Below are positions 8,393 to 38,061 of a stretch of DNA of 64,000 nt, one piece after another; position 1 is the first letter of the stretch; each line of letters opens with the position of its first letter. Source of the stretch: Opitutia bacterium (lineage in GTDB: Bacteria; Verrucomicrobiota; Verrucomicrobiia; Opitutales; UBA953); NCBI GenBank assembly GCA_003569165.1, contig BGOI01000001.1, forward strand, positions 62,001-126,000, written 5' to 3'. The notes under the pieces are model-generated. The model searched no databases. It was not told the DNA's origin and saw only the letters and a program-made list of their open reading frames with translations. A program made the translations under genes and the position numbers.

Positions 8393-8890
8393 TTACTTCG
8401 CGGGCCCGGCGTTGAGCTTATTCAACAACTCGGTGCGTTCATTGAGCAGACGCACGACCTCATCACGCTCGGCAACGAGCTTGCGCAGGCTCTCGTTCTG
8501 GGTGCGGACAACATCGTTCTGCTGCGTGACCACGGCATTCTGACGGCGGATCGAATCGTTCTGGTTCGCGACAGCGGCGCGGAGCGGCGCGAGTTCAGCG
8601 GCGGCATTCCGGGCCGTGATCAACGCGGCGGCGGAGACGGTCAATTCCTTGCGCACGGCTTCCTCGGCACGCTTCAGCTCGCCGACCCGCCCGTCGAGCC
8701 GACGGATCTCGGCGGCGTAGGTCTCGCCGAGGCGACGGGCTTCGGCGGATTGCTCGCGCAGTTCTCGTTCGGCCACGCGGGCGGACCGGAGCTCAGCCCG
8801 AAGCTCGGATTCGCGGACCCATTGCGAAGCGCAGAAGACCGAGAGCGCCACGCAGAGAGCGGCGAGGACGAGCGGCCAACGGAAACTCAT
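8393..8890 (-). CDS. Membrane-anchored coiled-coil protein at the end of the TonB/Exb operon
   Basis: A 165-residue protein. One N-terminal membrane anchor (about residues 5-22) is followed by an almost uninterrupted charged helix. Residues 109-136 form four tandem heptads in which Gln-Asn recurs at exactly seven-residue spacing (QN at 110, 117, 124 and 131), followed by Leu/Val heptads to the end. This predicts a periplasmic parallel coiled coil with polar core positions. I recognise no family. Its ATG overlaps the stop of exbD (8887-8890), so it is the translationally coupled last gene of receptor-tonB-exbB-exbD-this. It may be a structural partner of the energy-transducing complex; that is inference. 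Confidence 0.75.
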   Translation of the reverse strand: MSFRWPLVLAALCVALSVFCASQWVRESELRAELRSARVAERELREQSAEARRLGETYAAEIRRLDGRVGELKRAEEAVRKELTVSAAALITARNAAAELAPLRAAVANQNDSIRRQNAVVTQQNDVVRTQNESLRKLVAERDEVVRLLNERTELLNKLNAGPAK

Positions 8891-9300
8891 CGGGCAGCGG
8901 ACTTGACGGTGAAGGCAACCTTCTGGACGCCGGCGCTGCGGACGAAATCAAGGACGTCGATCATGCGGCCGTGCGGGGTGTCGGCGTCGCCGGCGATGTA
9001 GACCGCCACTCCGGCGTTGGCTTTGACACGGGAGAGCAGCGTCTGGCGAAGATCAGGCAAGGTGGCGGCCGTGCGGTCAATGAACACCTGGCCGGCGCGG
9101 TCGACCGAGATTGTGACCGCATCAGTCTTGAGCTCGGAATGACCGGTGGCGGCGCCTTCGAGGTTCACCGGCATGCAGTGATTCTTATGGAGCGTCACGC
9201 TGACGAGCATGAAGGCCGCCAGCAGGAAGAACATGATGTCGATCAGCGGGATGATCTCCAGCCGGGGGCGCCGGTGCGGCAACGGGGACGGAATCTTCAC
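8887..9300 (-). CDS. exbD: ExbD/TolR-family biopolymer transport protein
   Basis: A 137-residue inner-membrane protein. A short cytoplasmic N-terminus rich in Pro/Arg leads into the membrane helix IIPLIDIMFFLLAAFML. This contains the conserved Asp that takes part in proton translocation with ExbB. A periplasmic domain follows, with the family's D-x-x-x-x-GR...VLD...AGV pattern near the C-terminus. It overlaps exbB by 4 bp and the next gene by 4 bp. Confidence 0.9.
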   Translation of the reverse strand: MKIPSPLPHRRPRLEIIPLIDIMFFLLAAFMLVSVTLHKNHCMPVNLEGAATGHSELKTDAVTISVDRAGQVFIDRTAATLPDLRQTLLSRVKANAGVAVYIAGDADTPHGRMIDVLDFVRSAGVQKVAFTVKSAAR

Positions 9301-9923
9301 GAGACCCTCCCCTTCTGGATGGCGACCTGTAGGGTCGTCGCGGCGGCCTCGAGGTCGGCCTGCAGGCCGCTCAGGCGGCTCGACAGCAGGTTCAGCGGGA
9401 CGAGCGTCACAATGGCGATGCCGAGGCCCGCGGCGGTCGCAATCAGCGCCTCGCCGATGCCGCCGGTGACCTTCGTCACGGCGAGCTCATCCGAGCCGAT
9501 TGAAGTGAACGAGCCCATGATGCCGGTAACCGTTCCCAGCAGGCCGAGCAGCGGGGCCAGCGTCACGAGCGTGTCGAGCACGGTGATGAAACGAGCCGCT
9601 TCGCGCAGCTCGGCGGCGGACGCCACCTGGACGGCACCCTCGAACGAACCCGTGCGATGGGCAAGCCCGGCACGGAGCACGCGGGCGACCGGATCTTCGG
9701 ACTTCGCGACGGCCTGCTCGGCGGCGGCCCAGTCGCCCGCTTCGGCGGCCTTGAGGGCGGCGGCGACGGCGGCGGGATCACGGCGACCAGCGGTGCGGAA
9801 CCACCACACGAGGCGCTCGCCTACGACCGCAATGGCAATCAAGGCGGCGATGAGCAGCGGATACATGATCGGTCCTCCTTGCAGGAAGAGGTCGACCGCG
9901 GTGTTGGCGAGAGGGAGGGACAT
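9297..9923 (-). CDS. exbB: ExbB/TolQ/MotA-family proton channel protein
   Basis: A 208-residue protein with three membrane segments: one near residues 18-42, then a pair around 110-135 and 150-180. It carries the conserved LAPLLGLLGTVTGIMGSF motif. With ExbD it uses the proton gradient to energise TonB. The ATG at 9923 follows a GGGAGGGA purine run by a few bases. The open frame further upstream is Arg/Pro-rich shadow sequence over tonB and is left out. Confidence 0.92.
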   Translation of the reverse strand: MSLPLANTAVDLFLQGGPIMYPLLIAALIAIAVVGERLVWWFRTAGRRDPAAVAAALKAAEAGDWAAAEQAVAKSEDPVARVLRAGLAHRTGSFEGAVQVASAAELREAARFITVLDTLVTLAPLLGLLGTVTGIMGSFTSIGSDELAVTKVTGGIGEALIATAAGLGIAIVTLVPLNLLSSRLSGLQADLEAAATTLQVAIQKGRVS

Positions 9924-9931
9924 GGAGGTGG

Positions 9932-10570
9932 TTATTGAAGTTCGAAGATGAGTGGTACGAGGAAGCGGCGGGGGGCGCCAGGCGCCCACGTCCACTGTTG
10001 ACGGAGCCAGTCGATGGCATGCTGGTCGAGCGACGGATGACCGCTGGATTCGCGGACCGCGACGGACGAGGGTGCGCCGGAGGCGGCGACGTCGACGAGG
10101 ACGAGCAGACGACCTTGGACGCCCTGCTGACGGGCCCAACGAGGATAAGGCGGATCTGGGAAATCGCCAGGCATGTCCGGCACGAAACGTTCAGCAGAAG
10201 GAGGCGCGGAGAGAGCGGCACGGGGCGCCGCGGCGGATTTAACAGGACGCAGGGCGGTGACGGGCACCAAGGCAGGCATGGCGGTCACCGGCACGACGGC
10301 CAGCGGCGCGGTGGCGGCGACGACTTCCGGCGAGGCCGTCGGAACCTGTGGCGATGCTTCGGCGATTGCCGGCGAGGGGCTCGCGGGCTTGGCCGGCGGC
10401 GTGAAATACTGGACCGGCGCCCCAGCGCCATGGTCATGATCGTGTTCGGCGGGCAGCCGGACCGGGCCGGCCAGTTCGCCCAGCACGCACACCAAGATCG
10501 TCGCCGCACCGAGGGCGGCGGCCCAGGCGCAGAGGCGGTCTTGCGAGGCGATGGAAAGGGCGGCGGCCAA
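9932..10570 (-). CDS. tonB: TonB-type energy transducer with a His/Asp patch
   Basis: A 212-residue protein. The N-terminal membrane anchor spans about residues 14-36, followed by a short acidic-histidine patch (EHDHDHG, His 43, 45 and 47). A Pro/Ala/Val-rich periplasmic linker leads to a C-terminal TonB domain: FPDPPYPRWARQQGVQGRLLVLVDVAASG and a final W-x-P-G-stretch ending in FELQ. It transmits energy from ExbBD to the receptor encoded 4 bp upstream. The His patch next to the membrane is compatible with metal binding. Confidence 0.88.
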   Translation of the reverse strand: MAAALSIASQDRLCAWAAALGAATILVCVLGELAGPVRLPAEHDHDHGAGAPVQYFTPPAKPASPSPAIAEASPQVPTASPEVVAATAPLAVVPVTAMPALVPVTALRPVKSAAAPRAALSAPPSAERFVPDMPGDFPDPPYPRWARQQGVQGRLLVLVDVAASGAPSSVAVRESSGHPSLDQHAIDWLRQQWTWAPGAPRRFLVPLIFELQ

Positions 10571-10574
10571 AAGG

Positions 10575-12563
10575 TCAGAAGCTCAGCTTCAGACCTGCTT
10601 CTACACCGCGTCCCGGCAACGGCAAGGCATCCTTGATGAAGGAGGAAGCGTTGCGGGCCTCGACGTCGAAGAGGTTCGTCAGGCGGAGCGTGAAGCGGGC
10701 GGCGGCGCCGGCGACCTGGAAGTCATGGCCGAAACTGGCGCCGACCATCGTGTAACCCGCGGTAGGGGTCTCATCCGTGGCGAGGTGGTTCTGCGCCAGG
10801 TGATACGTGGCGTCGAGGCGCCAGGACCAGCCGGACTGCAAACCGTGCAGGGCGGCACCGATACGGCCGGGCGAGATGCGCGGGAGCGCCTCGGAGGTGT
10901 CGCGGTTCGAGGCGCGCACGGAGTCGCCGAAGAACTCGAGGCCGCACTTCGTGGTCGCCCCGTCCTGCAGCTGGAAATTCACCTTCGCTTCGGCGCCATA
11001 GAAGTCCGCTGGTACGGAGACGAAGTCATAGCGTGCGAGCTGGTCGACGCCGGAGGAGTAATTCGGACCACCAACACCGGTGAGATTGGGCCCGAAGCCG
11101 TTAGCCTGCTGGCTGATGAAGGAACTGAAACGGTTGTAGTAAACCGAGAAGCTACCCGAGATCGTGCCGCGCGTTTTGGCGAGCTCGAGCTCGAGGCCGA
11201 CGCCCTTCTCCTTGCCCAACGTGCGATCGCCGACCTCATAGGCGTCGGTGCCCATGTGCGGGCCATCGGCGAAGAGCTCCTGGAAATTCGGTGCGCGTTC
11301 GGTGCGGGTCAGGCTGAGCGTGGTCGACCACTGCGCGTTCAAGTCCTTGACCCAAGCCAGCGCCAGGCTCGCCGGCGTGAACGAAGCCGAGGCCGCGCTG
11401 GGATTGCTCGCCAGGCCTTCATGCGTCCAGGCTTCCGCTGACACCTTGGCGGACTCCACGCGGAAACCGTAGCGCAGACGTGTGTCGGCCGAGAGCGGCT
11501 GGACGAAGGAGCCGAAGAACGCGTCGTTGGCGTTACGAGTGTTCGGCAGGAAGGCCTCGTCGCCGGTCACCGCGAAATCGAAGCGGCCGGACTGCACGCC
11601 TACGACACCTTCAAGGGCGCCGATCTTCGTCAGTTCGAAGTCGACGCGCGCATCCCAGCCCTGATTGGTGAAAGTGCTGCCCGCGACGCCGCCATCGAAC
11701 TCGGAGTGCGCGTAGTCGGAGACGCCGAGCTTGTAGCTGACGGACTTCAACGCCGCGGCCGGCGAGTTGACTGAGCCCGCGAGATCCCAGCGGCGTTGAC
11801 GTAGGCCGATCTCGATACCCGGCTCGGTGACGCCATAGGTCGAGTCGAGGCCCGAGTAGGAAAGCCCGACATAACCAGACGGGCCGATGCGTGAGACGCC
11901 GAAGCCAGCGCCCTGGCTGTCGCTGGCCGTATCGGCGATGCGGCCGATCGGCGTGGAGAGGTCAGTCGTCGACTTCGTGAAGCCGTCGAGATGGAAGGCG
12001 AAGTCGCCTGCGCTGCCTTCGGCCAAAGCCGAGAGCGAACGGAGTCCGTCGGCCGAACCTGCGCGACCGAAGAGCGTGAACGCACGGGGCAGTCGTTCGA
12101 CTGGGATGCGGTTATCAATCACGTTCACCGCGCCACCGAGGATACTAGAGCTATAGAGCAAGGCCGCTGGGCCGCGGAGTACCTGCATCTCACGGATCGT
12201 CAGCGGATCGACGCTCACCGCGTGATCGGGACTCGAGCTCGAAGCATCGAGGCTGCTCGTGCCGTTCTGCGCGATCTTCAGGCGATCGCCTTCGAGACCG
12301 CGGATCACTGGTCGGCCCGAATTAGGACCGAAGTAGCTCGAAGCCACGCCGGGGATGTCGGCGAGCACATCGCCAAGAGTGGAAACCGAAAGCGCCTCCA
12401 GACTGGCGCCGCTGAGTCGCAGGGAAGGCGTGACCGCGGTGATTTCGCCACCGATAGCCGAGCCCTTGATTAAGACAGGCTTAAGCTTCTGCGGGGCGGG
12501 CTCTTGCGCGGAGACGGTGAGCGTGGCGGCGGCGAGGAGAAAGGCGGTGTGGAAGGGGCTCAT
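10575..12563 (-). CDS. TonB-dependent outer-membrane receptor, possibly for zinc or another metal complex
   Basis: A 662-residue protein. A signal peptide ends Thr-Val-Ser-Ala-Gln. The plug domain has LGDVLADIPGVASSYFGPNSGRPVIRGL and IREMQVLRGPAALLYSSSILGGAVNV. A 22-strand-type barrel ends in an aromatic residue (LKLSF). A segment around RTERAPNFQELFADGPHMGT and YEVGDRTLGKEKG resembles the ZnuD-like group of receptors, which take up zinc; this is recollection, not a search. The dedicated TonB/ExbBD downstream and the palindrome 17 bp upstream support a regulated, substrate-specific uptake operon. Confidence 0.92.
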   Translation of the reverse strand: MSPFHTAFLLAAATLTVSAQEPAPQKLKPVLIKGSAIGGEITAVTPSLRLSGASLEALSVSTLGDVLADIPGVASSYFGPNSGRPVIRGLEGDRLKIAQNGTSSLDASSSSPDHAVSVDPLTIREMQVLRGPAALLYSSSILGGAVNVIDNRIPVERLPRAFTLFGRAGSADGLRSLSALAEGSAGDFAFHLDGFTKSTTDLSTPIGRIADTASDSQGAGFGVSRIGPSGYVGLSYSGLDSTYGVTEPGIEIGLRQRRWDLAGSVNSPAAALKSVSYKLGVSDYAHSEFDGGVAGSTFTNQGWDARVDFELTKIGALEGVVGVQSGRFDFAVTGDEAFLPNTRNANDAFFGSFVQPLSADTRLRYGFRVESAKVSAEAWTHEGLASNPSAASASFTPASLALAWVKDLNAQWSTTLSLTRTERAPNFQELFADGPHMGTDAYEVGDRTLGKEKGVGLELELAKTRGTISGSFSVYYNRFSSFISQQANGFGPNLTGVGGPNYSSGVDQLARYDFVSVPADFYGAEAKVNFQLQDGATTKCGLEFFGDSVRASNRDTSEALPRISPGRIGAALHGLQSGWSWRLDATYHLAQNHLATDETPTAGYTMVGASFGHDFQVAGAAARFTLRLTNLFDVEARNASSFIKDALPLPGRGVEAGLKLSF

Positions 12564-12579
12564 TGGTGGGGTTTACTTA

Positions 12580-12596
12580 TTGCAATACAGTTGCAA
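12580..12596. promoter_or_regulatory. Palindromic operator-like site in front of the receptor operon
   Basis: TTGCAATACAGTTGCAA is two TTGCAA half-sites separated by 5 bp, itself an inverted repeat. It lies 17 bp upstream of the receptor ATG on the minus strand. The size and symmetry suit a dimeric repressor such as a Fur/Zur-family protein. It also sits in the divergent region shared with the DUF485 gene. The regulator is not encoded in the window. Confidence 0.5.
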
Positions 12597-12666
12597 AAAG
12601 GAATCGCAAGGGGAAATCATCGGGTTTGCAGTCCGCAGATAATTGCACGGACTACTGCCCACCCCC

Positions 12667-12978
12667 ATGAGCGAGTCCCCCTCCACCCCTGATTCCATCC
12701 ATTCGGATGCGTTCCTAGCGCGCCTGATGCGCGACCAGTTGAAGCTCTCCATCGCCTGCGCGCTGTGCTTCGTCGTCGCACTCGTCGCCCTGCCCTTGCT
12801 GAACTACTTCCAGCCGGAGTTCATGGCCCAGCGCGTGTTCGGCTTCACGCTCACGTGGTTGATCCTCGGCGTGCTCTTCTTCCCCTTCGTGTGGATCATC
12901 TCCTATGTCTTCATCAAGCGCTCCATCGCGCTCGAGGACGCCGAAGCCAAAGCCGCCCTGGACGGCCTGACCAAGTAA
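12667..12978 (+). CDS. DUF485 membrane protein, partner of the acetate symporter
   Basis: A 103-residue protein with two membrane helices (about residues 28-48 and 60-85) and the DUF485 layout: a short N-terminal amphipathic segment LARLMRDQLKLS and a conserved Pro-Leu/Tyr-Phe turn between the helices. In many bacteria this family (YjcH) sits directly before actP, as here. Its TAA is 1 bp from the next ATG (TAATATG). Its function is unclear; probably an accessory to the symporter. Confidence 0.87.
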   Translation: MSESPSTPDSIHSDAFLARLMRDQLKLSIACALCFVVALVALPLLNYFQPEFMAQRVFGFTLTWLILGVLFFPFVWIISYVFIKRSIALEDAEAKAALDGLTK

Positions 12979-12979
12979 T

Positions 12980-14752
12980 ATGAACGCCCTCCTCGCCGCC
13001 GCCGGTATCGATCCTTGGATCGCCATCTGCTCCCTCGTCACCGTCGTCATCACCGTCGGCATGGGCTTCTGGACCGCCGGTAAGTCCAAGAGCGCCGGCG
13101 ACTTCTTCGTCGCGGGCCGCTCGGTCTCCGTCGGCTGGAACGCCTCCGCCATCTCGGGAGAATACCTTTCCGCCGCGTCCTTCATGGGCGTCGCGGGTAT
13201 GGTGATGCTCAACGGCTACGACGCGCTCTGGTATCCCGTATGTTACGCGTGCGGCTACCTCTTCCTCCTGCTCTTCATCGCCGGCCCACTGCGTCGCTTC
13301 GGTGCCTACACCATCCCGGACTTCGCCGAAGGTCGCTATGACTCGCCAGTGTTCCGCAAGATCGCCGTCTGCTTCGTGCTCTTCATCGGCTTCTTCTACA
13401 CCATGCCTCAGATGAAGGGCGCCGGCACCACGCTCGCCTACATCTTCCCCGGCCTGCACTATTCCGTCGGCGTCATCGTCGTCGGCGCGGTCATCACCCT
13501 CAACGTCTCGCTCGGCGGCATGAAGGGCATCACGCTCGTCCAGGCCTTCCAGTATTGGCTCAAGGTCTTCGCCATCACTATCCCGATCTTCGTGTTGGCC
13601 TCCATCGTCGGGCATTATCAGCAGCACCTCGAGGCCAACAAGACCGCTCAGGAAACCGTCGCCGCCGCCCCCGCGGGCATCGAGCGCAAGGCCCTCACGG
13701 CCAAGGCACCGAAGGACGAACAGTGGATCGCGCCGTTCGGCAGCCTGACCACCAAGGCCGTCGACAACGCCATCAAGGCCGCCAAGACCCCCGAAGAAAA
13801 AGCCGCGCTCGAGGCGAACAAGAAGCCCTACTCCCTCCTCTACACCTACTCGCTGATCATCGCGCTCGTCTGCGGCACCGCCGGCCTGCCGCACATCCTC
13901 GTCCGTTTCTACACCAACCCGGACGGCGTCGCCGCGAAGCGCACCACGATGTGGGTGATGATCCTGATCGGTGTCTTCTATGTCTTCCCGCCGGTCTACG
14001 GCGTCATCGGCCGGTCGCTCATGCCGGAACTTTACGAGGCCATCGGCTCCAAGGGCACAGACAAGGTCGTGCTCGAGCTGCCCACCCTGCTCGCCGGCCG
14101 CGACTACCCGCTCCTCGGCTCGGTCCTCTCGGGTATCACGTGCGCGGGCGCCTTCGCCGCGTTCATGTCCACCTTCTCCGGCCTGCTCGTCTCGATGTCC
14201 AGCGCCCTAGCGCATGACATCTACGGTCGCATGCTCAAGCCGGACTCCTCGCCGGAGCAGCGCCTGAAGGCCTTCAAGTGGGCCGCCGTCATCATCGGCG
14301 TCGTCTCCGTGGGCCTCGGCACTCAGGTCGAGAAGCTCAACATCAACTACCTCGTCGGCCAAGCCTTCGCCATCGCGGCGGCCAGCTACTTCCCCCTGCT
14401 CTTCATGAGCGTCTGGTGGCGTGGCATGACCATGAAAGGCGCGGCGACCGGCATGCTCGTCGGTGGCCTCATGGCCCTCGGCGCGATCACCCTCACCACG
14501 CTGTCTGATGTCTACGCCGTGCAGTCGCTGGCGGACTTCTGGGTCGCGAACCCGCTCGTGCGCATCCTCTGCGAACAGCCCGCCATCTGGGCCGTGCCGC
14601 TATCAATCATCCTGATGATCGTGGTCTCGAAGGCCACGGCCTCGACGGTCCCCGCCGACGTCCGCATGAAGATGCTCGTCCTGCACGCCCCGGAAGCCCT
14701 GGGTCTGAAGCAGGAATACATCAAGGAGCACGAAGGTCTCGGCGGTCACTGA
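12980..14752 (+). CDS. actP: Sodium:solute symporter, ActP-like cation/acetate permease
   Basis: A 590-residue SSS-family transporter with about 13 membrane segments. The N-terminal GKSKSAGDFFVAGRSVS motif and SGEYLSAASFMGVAGM match the acetate/pyruvate subgroup. GLPHILVRFYT and CAGAFAAFMSTFSGLLVSMSSALAHDIY are also typical. Between residues ~215 and 285 there is a hydrophilic Ala/Lys-rich insertion (EANKTAQETVAAAPAGIERK and on) before the next helix, making it longer than E. coli ActP (549). It is probably coupled to the DUF485 gene. Confidence 0.92.
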   Translation: MNALLAAAGIDPWIAICSLVTVVITVGMGFWTAGKSKSAGDFFVAGRSVSVGWNASAISGEYLSAASFMGVAGMVMLNGYDALWYPVCYACGYLFLLLFIAGPLRRFGAYTIPDFAEGRYDSPVFRKIAVCFVLFIGFFYTMPQMKGAGTTLAYIFPGLHYSVGVIVVGAVITLNVSLGGMKGITLVQAFQYWLKVFAITIPIFVLASIVGHYQQHLEANKTAQETVAAAPAGIERKALTAKAPKDEQWIAPFGSLTTKAVDNAIKAAKTPEEKAALEANKKPYSLLYTYSLIIALVCGTAGLPHILVRFYTNPDGVAAKRTTMWVMILIGVFYVFPPVYGVIGRSLMPELYEAIGSKGTDKVVLELPTLLAGRDYPLLGSVLSGITCAGAFAAFMSTFSGLLVSMSSALAHDIYGRMLKPDSSPEQRLKAFKWAAVIIGVVSVGLGTQVEKLNINYLVGQAFAIAAASYFPLLFMSVWWRGMTMKGAATGMLVGGLMALGAITLTTLSDVYAVQSLADFWVANPLVRILCEQPAIWAVPLSIILMIVVSKATASTVPADVRMKMLVLHAPEALGLKQEYIKEHEGLGGH

Positions 14753-37994: not shown

Positions 37995-38061
37995 TTTGAC
38001 GAGGGGTGGCTGGCAAATCCGTTGCAACCACGGGCCAGCTTTGCTGTCTTGAAGAGACCCC

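Follow-up and report, generated by a model that had tools for sequence, protein, structure and literature searches.

Related metal-responsive systems

The described operators closest to the palindrome reported here are those of two Fur-family regulators. A Zur box, ATGCAACNNNGTTGCAT, was predicted before znuABC-zur in 2004 from two Desulfovibrio genomes (PMC545781), and Nur, the nickel regulator of sodF and sodN in Streptomyces coelicolor, has the box tTGCaa-N5-ttGCAA (PMC3919588); these comparisons, like those with the other papers cited, are with parts of the published text. The Opitutia palindrome lies within a window of 64,000 nucleotides, the whole stretch of DNA that was analysed. Its likeness to the Desulfovibrio box lies in the arms ATGCAA/TTGCAT, with five bases between them, and in a zinc ABC importer as target. 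It differs in doing without the inner C..G of ATGCAACNNNGTTGCAT and in accepting either A or T as outer letter; the Opitutia targets also add a ZnuD-like receptor operon, and the gene for the candidate regulator is not linked to zinc genes in the source genome. The Streptomyces Nur box has arms and spacing identical to those of the Opitutia box, but its targets differ, and the Fur-family protein concerned is more distant from the Opitutia candidate, L075. A preliminary description of the window had suggested an operator unlike the known Zur and Fur boxes, a view that the match to the predicted Desulfovibrio Zur box and to the Nur box overturns.

Zur regulation of a TonB-dependent zinc receptor and an ABC importer is described for ZnuD of Neisseria (PMC2895646, PMC4557270). 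The Opitutia locus is alike in both components, the four ligands of the receptor are kept, and its regulation is predicted. In the parts of those papers compared, the box of Neisseria is likened to that of E. coli Zur, GAAATGTTATANTATAACATTTC, unlike the Opitutia box. The Opitutia receptor also has no aligned counterpart, around residues 244-246, of the His/Asp-rich loop 3 of ZnuD, and its operon includes tonB-exbBD. Paracoccus aztABC is listed in the Zur table of PMC6103462. ZepA proteins, PEP-CTERM surface proteins that adjoin a fur gene or are controlled together with one, have been described from groups that include the PVC superphylum (PMC10957091); as far as the portion available goes, that paper gives one verrucomicrobial box, from Luteolibacter yonseiensis, described as Clostridia-like, and TGCAA is absent from its main text.

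No description of the present box in Verrucomicrobiota was found in the literature searched. Judged from its sequence and occurrence, the box behaves like a Zur box and most likely is one. With two target operons and a likeliest regulator, it defines a testable zinc regulon for freshwater Opitutia, which are known mostly from metagenomes, and should be useful for annotating zinc regulons in metagenome genomes. Finding the box again ahead of zinc importers in a phylum far from Desulfovibrio also strengthens the 2004 prediction.

The palindrome and the receptor operon

The sequence TTGCAATACAGTTGCAA at positions 12580-12596 reads TTGCAA-TACAG-TTGCAA and forms an operator-like box of 17 bp, to which no strand is assigned; its letters, and its conservation before receptor orthologues and aztC, mark it as a putative Zur box. 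Since each half, TTGCAA, is itself palindromic, the two halves form a direct as well as an inverted repeat. The letters and position had been reported exactly in the preliminary description, and the distance of 17 bp given there is corrected to the 16 bases counted between the box and the receptor ATG (12563-12561, complementary strand).

Within the window there was a single exact match, and 100 dinucleotide shuffles gave 0. The source genome (37 contigs, 2.03 Mb, 86.6% complete) likewise held a single exact copy of TTGCAATACAGTTGCAA in 2,026,500 bases, while the reversed-pattern control had 0. When up to two mismatches were allowed, 16 sites were found genome-wide versus 25 for the control; as there is no genome-wide excess of degenerate sites, the significance of the palindrome rests on conservation. 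A one-mismatch site in the window, at 38011-38027, was rejected; its mismatch falls in the core, and it precedes a gene that by eye looks like an oxidoreductase.

The operon is encoded on the complementary strand and comprises the ZnuD-like TonB-dependent receptor of 662 amino acids (10575..12563), a TonB protein with a TTG start (9932..10570), an ExbB/TolQ-type channel (9297..9923, with a start inferred at the ATG at 9923), an ExbD/TolR-type protein (8887..9300) and, as last gene, a coiled-coil-like protein of 165 amino acids that overlaps exbD (8393..8890). The genes follow one another with intergenic gaps of a few bases or with overlaps. Pfam searches confirmed the receptor, TonB, ExbB and ExbD; the 165-amino-acid protein had no Pfam match. 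Outside the operon, a divergent DUF485 gene (12667..12978) and, downstream of it, a sodium:solute symporter gene (12980..14752), both assigned with Pfam, lie on the forward strand.

A putative promoter can be placed over the box. On the complementary strand, a -35-like TTGCGA (12604..12609), whose TTG begins exactly 13 nt before the box, is followed after a 16-nt spacer by a -10-like TATTGC (12582..12587) in the right half of the box. Sixteen of the 20 receptor-side rows share a TTG with exactly this spacing. If this TTG marks the -35 hexamer, the -10 hexamer falls within the box's right half, and the box would then lie where a repressor acts. With such a -10 the leader of the receptor mRNA would be very short, and the message is possibly near-leaderless. 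By eye, no Shine-Dalgarno sequence was visible before the receptor in 12564-12587. A second conserved element, ACTGCAAACCCGATGATT, was noticed some 30 bp upstream from the box (12615-12632, complementary strand). Its TGCAA was found in 18 of the 20 receptor-side rows, the exceptions being L027 and L031, and the element may be part of the divergent DUF485/symporter promoter or a half-site.

The TonB protein carries the His/Asp patch EHDHDHG, which had been put forward as a clue to metal uptake. The patch itself is present as described, and it or a close form occurs in six of 12 orthologous TonB proteins (L015-L020), being absent from those of L027, L028, L029, L031, L034 and G017. Because it is not general among orthologous loci, it counts as weak evidence for a metal. 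In seven other loci (L021, L022, L024, L025, L026, L030 and L032) a second TonB-dependent receptor-like gene was seen by eye after the receptor, in place of tonB-exbBD.

Identity of the receptor

The best NCBIfam family of the receptor is ZnuD, with a score of 272 bits; as this is below the cut-off of 950, the protein is classed by sequence as ZnuD-like and not as ZnuD proper. The best match among solved structures is also ZnuD (4rdr, E 1.9e-53), and the next are heme-receptor and copper-porin chains, starting at 1.3e-7. The high-affinity zinc ligands of ZnuD are given as H100, E340, H499 and an Asp printed as D90 (PMC4557270). Their numbering was mapped in this analysis with an offset of 14, which the printed D90 does not fit, and receptor residues H114, E288, H436 and D113 align to H100, E340, H499 and the Asp before H100, respectively. 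The residues at these four positions were invariant wherever they could be read, that is, in 20, 21, 20 and 20 of 21 genus orthologues.

Relatives of the receptor with 67-96% identity were found in seven records titled Opitutia, Opitutae or Verrucomicrobia (six MAGs). The box is also present at the receptor of the record 'Opitutae bacterium BS10' (L136). Ten ZnuD-like loci of other organisms (L139-L148) had no site with fewer than three core mismatches within 400 bp.

Conservation of the box at two promoters

The other core-exact site found in the source genome, ATGCAAACTTCTTGCAT at G000:C7:25809-25825, precedes the genome's own aztCAB-type operon, which encodes a substrate-binding protein, an ATPase and a permease. 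The best NCBIfam models for these three genes are AztC, AztA and AztB, which likens them to the zinc importer AztABC, with the difference that all three score below the equivalog cut-offs. The substrate-binding protein matched AztC with 127 bits versus 119 bits for Deinococcus MntC, while the ATPase and permease fit AztA and AztB clearly better.

In a sample of 55 genomes of the genus, WTGCAANNNNNTTGCAW (WTGCAA-N5-TTGCAW) had 57 sites in 42 genomes, and a reversed control pattern was present in one of the 55. By their surroundings, 35 of the sites stand before aztC, 18 at the receptor operon and four elsewhere. The 13 genomes with no exact W..W site all possess L075; seven of them have an aztC box that departs by one mismatch or in its outer letter; for the remaining six, the promoter was cut or AztB unmatched.

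The receptor follows the box at 16 of the 18 receptor-operon sites. In one of the two exceptions, G017, the box is kept and tonB-exbBD was seen to follow directly, with no receptor between; in the other, G003, the first codons of the receptor run into the coiled-coil gene near a contig end. Both arrangements suggest deletions or assembly joins. Two of the 21 receptor orthologues in the genus are at cut loci. Of the 19 with readable upstream DNA, 17 have a box with 0-1 core mismatches, and a further box in G076 (L049) brings the total to 18 of 20 readable orthologues; no box was found within 300 bp of the receptors of G004 and G040. Across the 20 tabulated receptor-side boxes (these 18 and those of G017 and G003) the core TGCAA...TTGCA is constant bar one letter each in L020 and L027; the middle five letters are variable, and each outer letter is either A or T.

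At aztC promoters the box was present in all 48 readable genus stretches, with an exact core in 39 and one mismatch in nine. These came from 51 stretches taken, three of which were cut before the promoter; four of the 55 genomes had no AztB match. The scan of related genomes that had been proposed earlier thus finds the box before 18 of 20 receptor orthologues and at 48 of 48 aztC promoters, a pattern that is neither unconserved nor random, and the idea of an uptake operon under metal control, with an operator of repressor type, is upheld by conservation of the box at both promoters, which have otherwise diverged.

The four sites elsewhere (G041:C1, G040:C2, G004:C59 and G030:C2) had no recognised metal gene nearby. 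In L063, L065 and L071 a long inverted repeat holding CTTAATGCAA-N5-TTGCA was observed near position 1501, with a flank common to the three. By eye, it adjoins AbiEii-like, KAP-NTPase-like or HipA-like genes and no metal gene, and the region is perhaps a mobile or defence part.

Occurrence in family f20 and across the order

In family f20, which belongs to the same order, the box was found before aztC in all seven genomes read, with an exact core in five and one mismatch in two; G146 and G179, whose AztB matches are weak, were left out of this reading. The seven genomes together held 30 exact core sites versus nine for the control, and each exceeded its own control. Nine genomes from outside f20 in the same search gave 25 exact core sites versus 20, barely above the control. 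Apart from those at aztC, f20 has 25 exact core sites, of which 21 were read; 11 of the latter precede zinc-type or associated genes. One precedes a gene for the zinc metallochaperone ZigA (605.7 bits, cut-off 600) and one a COG0523 protein below the ZigA cut-off. The others stand before two LysM-amidases, three choice-of-anchor-M PEP-CTERM proteins and four pseudopilins from these gene neighbourhoods; beyond the anchor-M and pseudopilin proteins that were scanned, three were assigned by eye on sequence likeness. The remaining ten sites have no metal gene, five being inside genes and five having no recognised one. COG0523 (yciC) and the amidases amiA/amiC appear in the Zur table of PMC6103462. 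The PEP-CTERM proteins may recall ZepA, a lead only, and their identity as ZepA was rejected, since the motif H-X2-9-H-F/Y-H given in PMC10957091 is absent from the four that were checked. ZigA was found in none of the 55 genus genomes.

In six f20 loci (L258, L260, L262, L263, L264 and L265) a short Fur-like gene immediately precedes the box and aztC. The one at L262:1845-2219 matches PF01475 with 54 bits, has no CxxC pairs and is related to L077, one of the Fur-family genes of the source genome.

Among order members from outside f20, the AztC region could be read in seven (G145 of g29, five from f24 and one from f14), and none of these has a box with 0-1 mismatches. G145, which belongs to the same family as the source genome, has aztCAB and an L075 orthologue, yet no such aztC box and no exact core site anywhere in its genome. 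Several ZigA-linked L075 orthologues also had no box, in 3.4 kb for L304 and near the Fur gene for L361, L371, L373 and L375. The motif is not order-wide; the box has perhaps diverged from one lineage to another.

Candidate regulator

Four FUR-family genes were found in the source genome. L075 (G000:C3:36455-36928, 158 amino acids, PF01475) has no zinc gene within 8 kb; L076 adjoins a catalase-peroxidase gene; L077 has no CxxC and precedes an ABC ATPase gene taken by eye for SufC; and L078 lies beside a gene taken by eye for quinolinate synthase. The likeliest regulator, judged from gene context, is L075. In its orthologues the four Cys of both CxxC pairs are kept in 58 of 58, and the four sensor-region His in 54-58 of 58. 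Its NCBIfam scores were 74 bits for Fur versus 31 bits for Zur, all below the cut-offs. Its best structural matches were a Fur, then 3mwm (3.2e-18), which we take to be Streptomyces Zur, a second Fur, and 2o03, M. tuberculosis FurB (1.8e-15); the match to 3eyy, presumably Nur, was weaker than those to 3mwm and 2o03 (1.7e-8). By sequence L075 is not clearly a Zur, as Fur models score higher, and its predicted identity as Zur rests on gene context.

Across the order, 13 of the 45 loci examined for L075 orthologues had zinc-type neighbours (ZigA/COG0523, anchor-M, pseudopilin, MerC, amidase and ZnuD genes) versus 0 of 20 other Fur loci, a contrast weakened by the absence from the controls of the f20 aztC-linked Fur-like genes, which would rank as Fur genes of another type that do adjoin zinc genes. 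The 20 control loci were hand-picked, with those short genes left out (G121:C9 and G135:C4 were in the same list), and AztA matches at five of them were set aside as generic ABC ATPases. The 45 loci were taken from a longer list, with G149, G105 and G170 among those left out, and 32 of them had no zinc-type neighbour. A box with 0-1 mismatches precedes the Fur gene itself at four of the 45 L075 loci versus 0 of the 20 others.

Orthologues of L075 (matches of at least 60% identity) were present in 52 of the 55 genus genomes. The other three, G017, G008 and G045, have boxes without an L075 orthologue, in assemblies that are 93, 74 and 66% complete; G008 had no FUR-family match at all. Within the same family, AztB was found in none of four g28 genomes, which also have no close L075 orthologue (best E 7.8e-6), and the g29 genome has both.

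Proposed regulation and alternative explanations

The box, its conservation, two target operons, the zinc ligands of the receptor and the zinc-type neighbours of some L075 orthologues are read from the sequence. From these we propose, with considerable confidence, that the palindrome is the Zur-box operator of a small zinc-uptake regulon repressed by a Fur-family zinc sensor, most likely L075. Under zinc sufficiency, a zinc-loaded dimer of this protein would bind the 17-bp box, zinc thereby acting as co-repressor. The box would cover the spacer and -10 region of the predicted receptor promoter, so that a bound repressor would exclude RNA polymerase. In zinc shortage this repressor would lose its zinc and leave the box, and both operons would be expressed. 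One would supply the ZnuD-like receptor of the outer membrane, energised by its own TonB, ExbB and ExbD, and the other the aztCAB-type ABC importer of the inner membrane; together they could form a path for zinc from the outside to the cytoplasm.

Zinc is favoured as the metal because ZnuD, Azt and ZigA point to it together. By its letters the box would fit a Nur-like Fur-family protein repressing a nickel receptor and importer, as it exactly matches the tTGCaa-N5-ttGCAA quoted in PMC3919588, but the targets are ZnuD-like and Azt-like, the f20 targets include ZigA, and none of the genes at the boxes read, part of which were family-searched, was recognised as serving nickel. L075 is, moreover, closer to 3mwm and 2o03 than to 3eyy, and we consider a nickel operator very unlikely. 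The near-equal scores of the AztC-like protein with AztC and Deinococcus MntC could instead mean that the ABC importer carries manganese under an MntR- or Mur-type regulator. This is even less probable, since the ATPase and permease are clearly nearer to AztA and AztB, the co-regulated receptor is ZnuD-like with zinc ligands, and ZigA at an f20 box matches a zinc metallochaperone model; it is the target genes that set both the nickel and the manganese readings low. That the palindrome arose by chance, or is a structural element such as an attenuator or terminator, would agree with its one exact genome copy and the absence of an excess at two mismatches, but hardly with ten core letters kept around a variable middle at two unrelated promoters, and this explanation is close to negligible.

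The zinc regulon could also be the same and the protein that binds the box another Fur paralogue, of the suf-linked L077 type or like the short Fur-like protein of f20. Such an assignment draws on the short, L077-related gene that immediately precedes the box and aztC in f20, on the boxes in three genomes with no L075 orthologue, and on the lack of linkage between L075 and zinc genes in the source genome. It is nevertheless rather unlikely: zinc-type neighbours (13 of 45) and a box before its own gene (four of 45) are found for L075, versus 0 and 0 of the 20 other loci, from which the f20 aztC-linked genes were excluded; no Fur-like gene was seen in 19 genus stretches; and L077 precedes the ABC ATPase taken for SufC.

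Repression by a zinc sensor, most likely L075, thus remains the preferred reading. More speculatively, and with low probability, TGCAA-N5-TTGCA may be an old Fur-family operator class that does not itself encode the identity of the metal, serving zinc in Opitutia and Desulfovibrio and nickel in Streptomyces. The f20 aztC box would then be read by the second, short Fur-like protein without CxxC, so that two Fur-family proteins would converge on one box. The short Fur-like gene of f20 is itself preceded by a gene that, by eye, encodes a SixA-like phosphatase.
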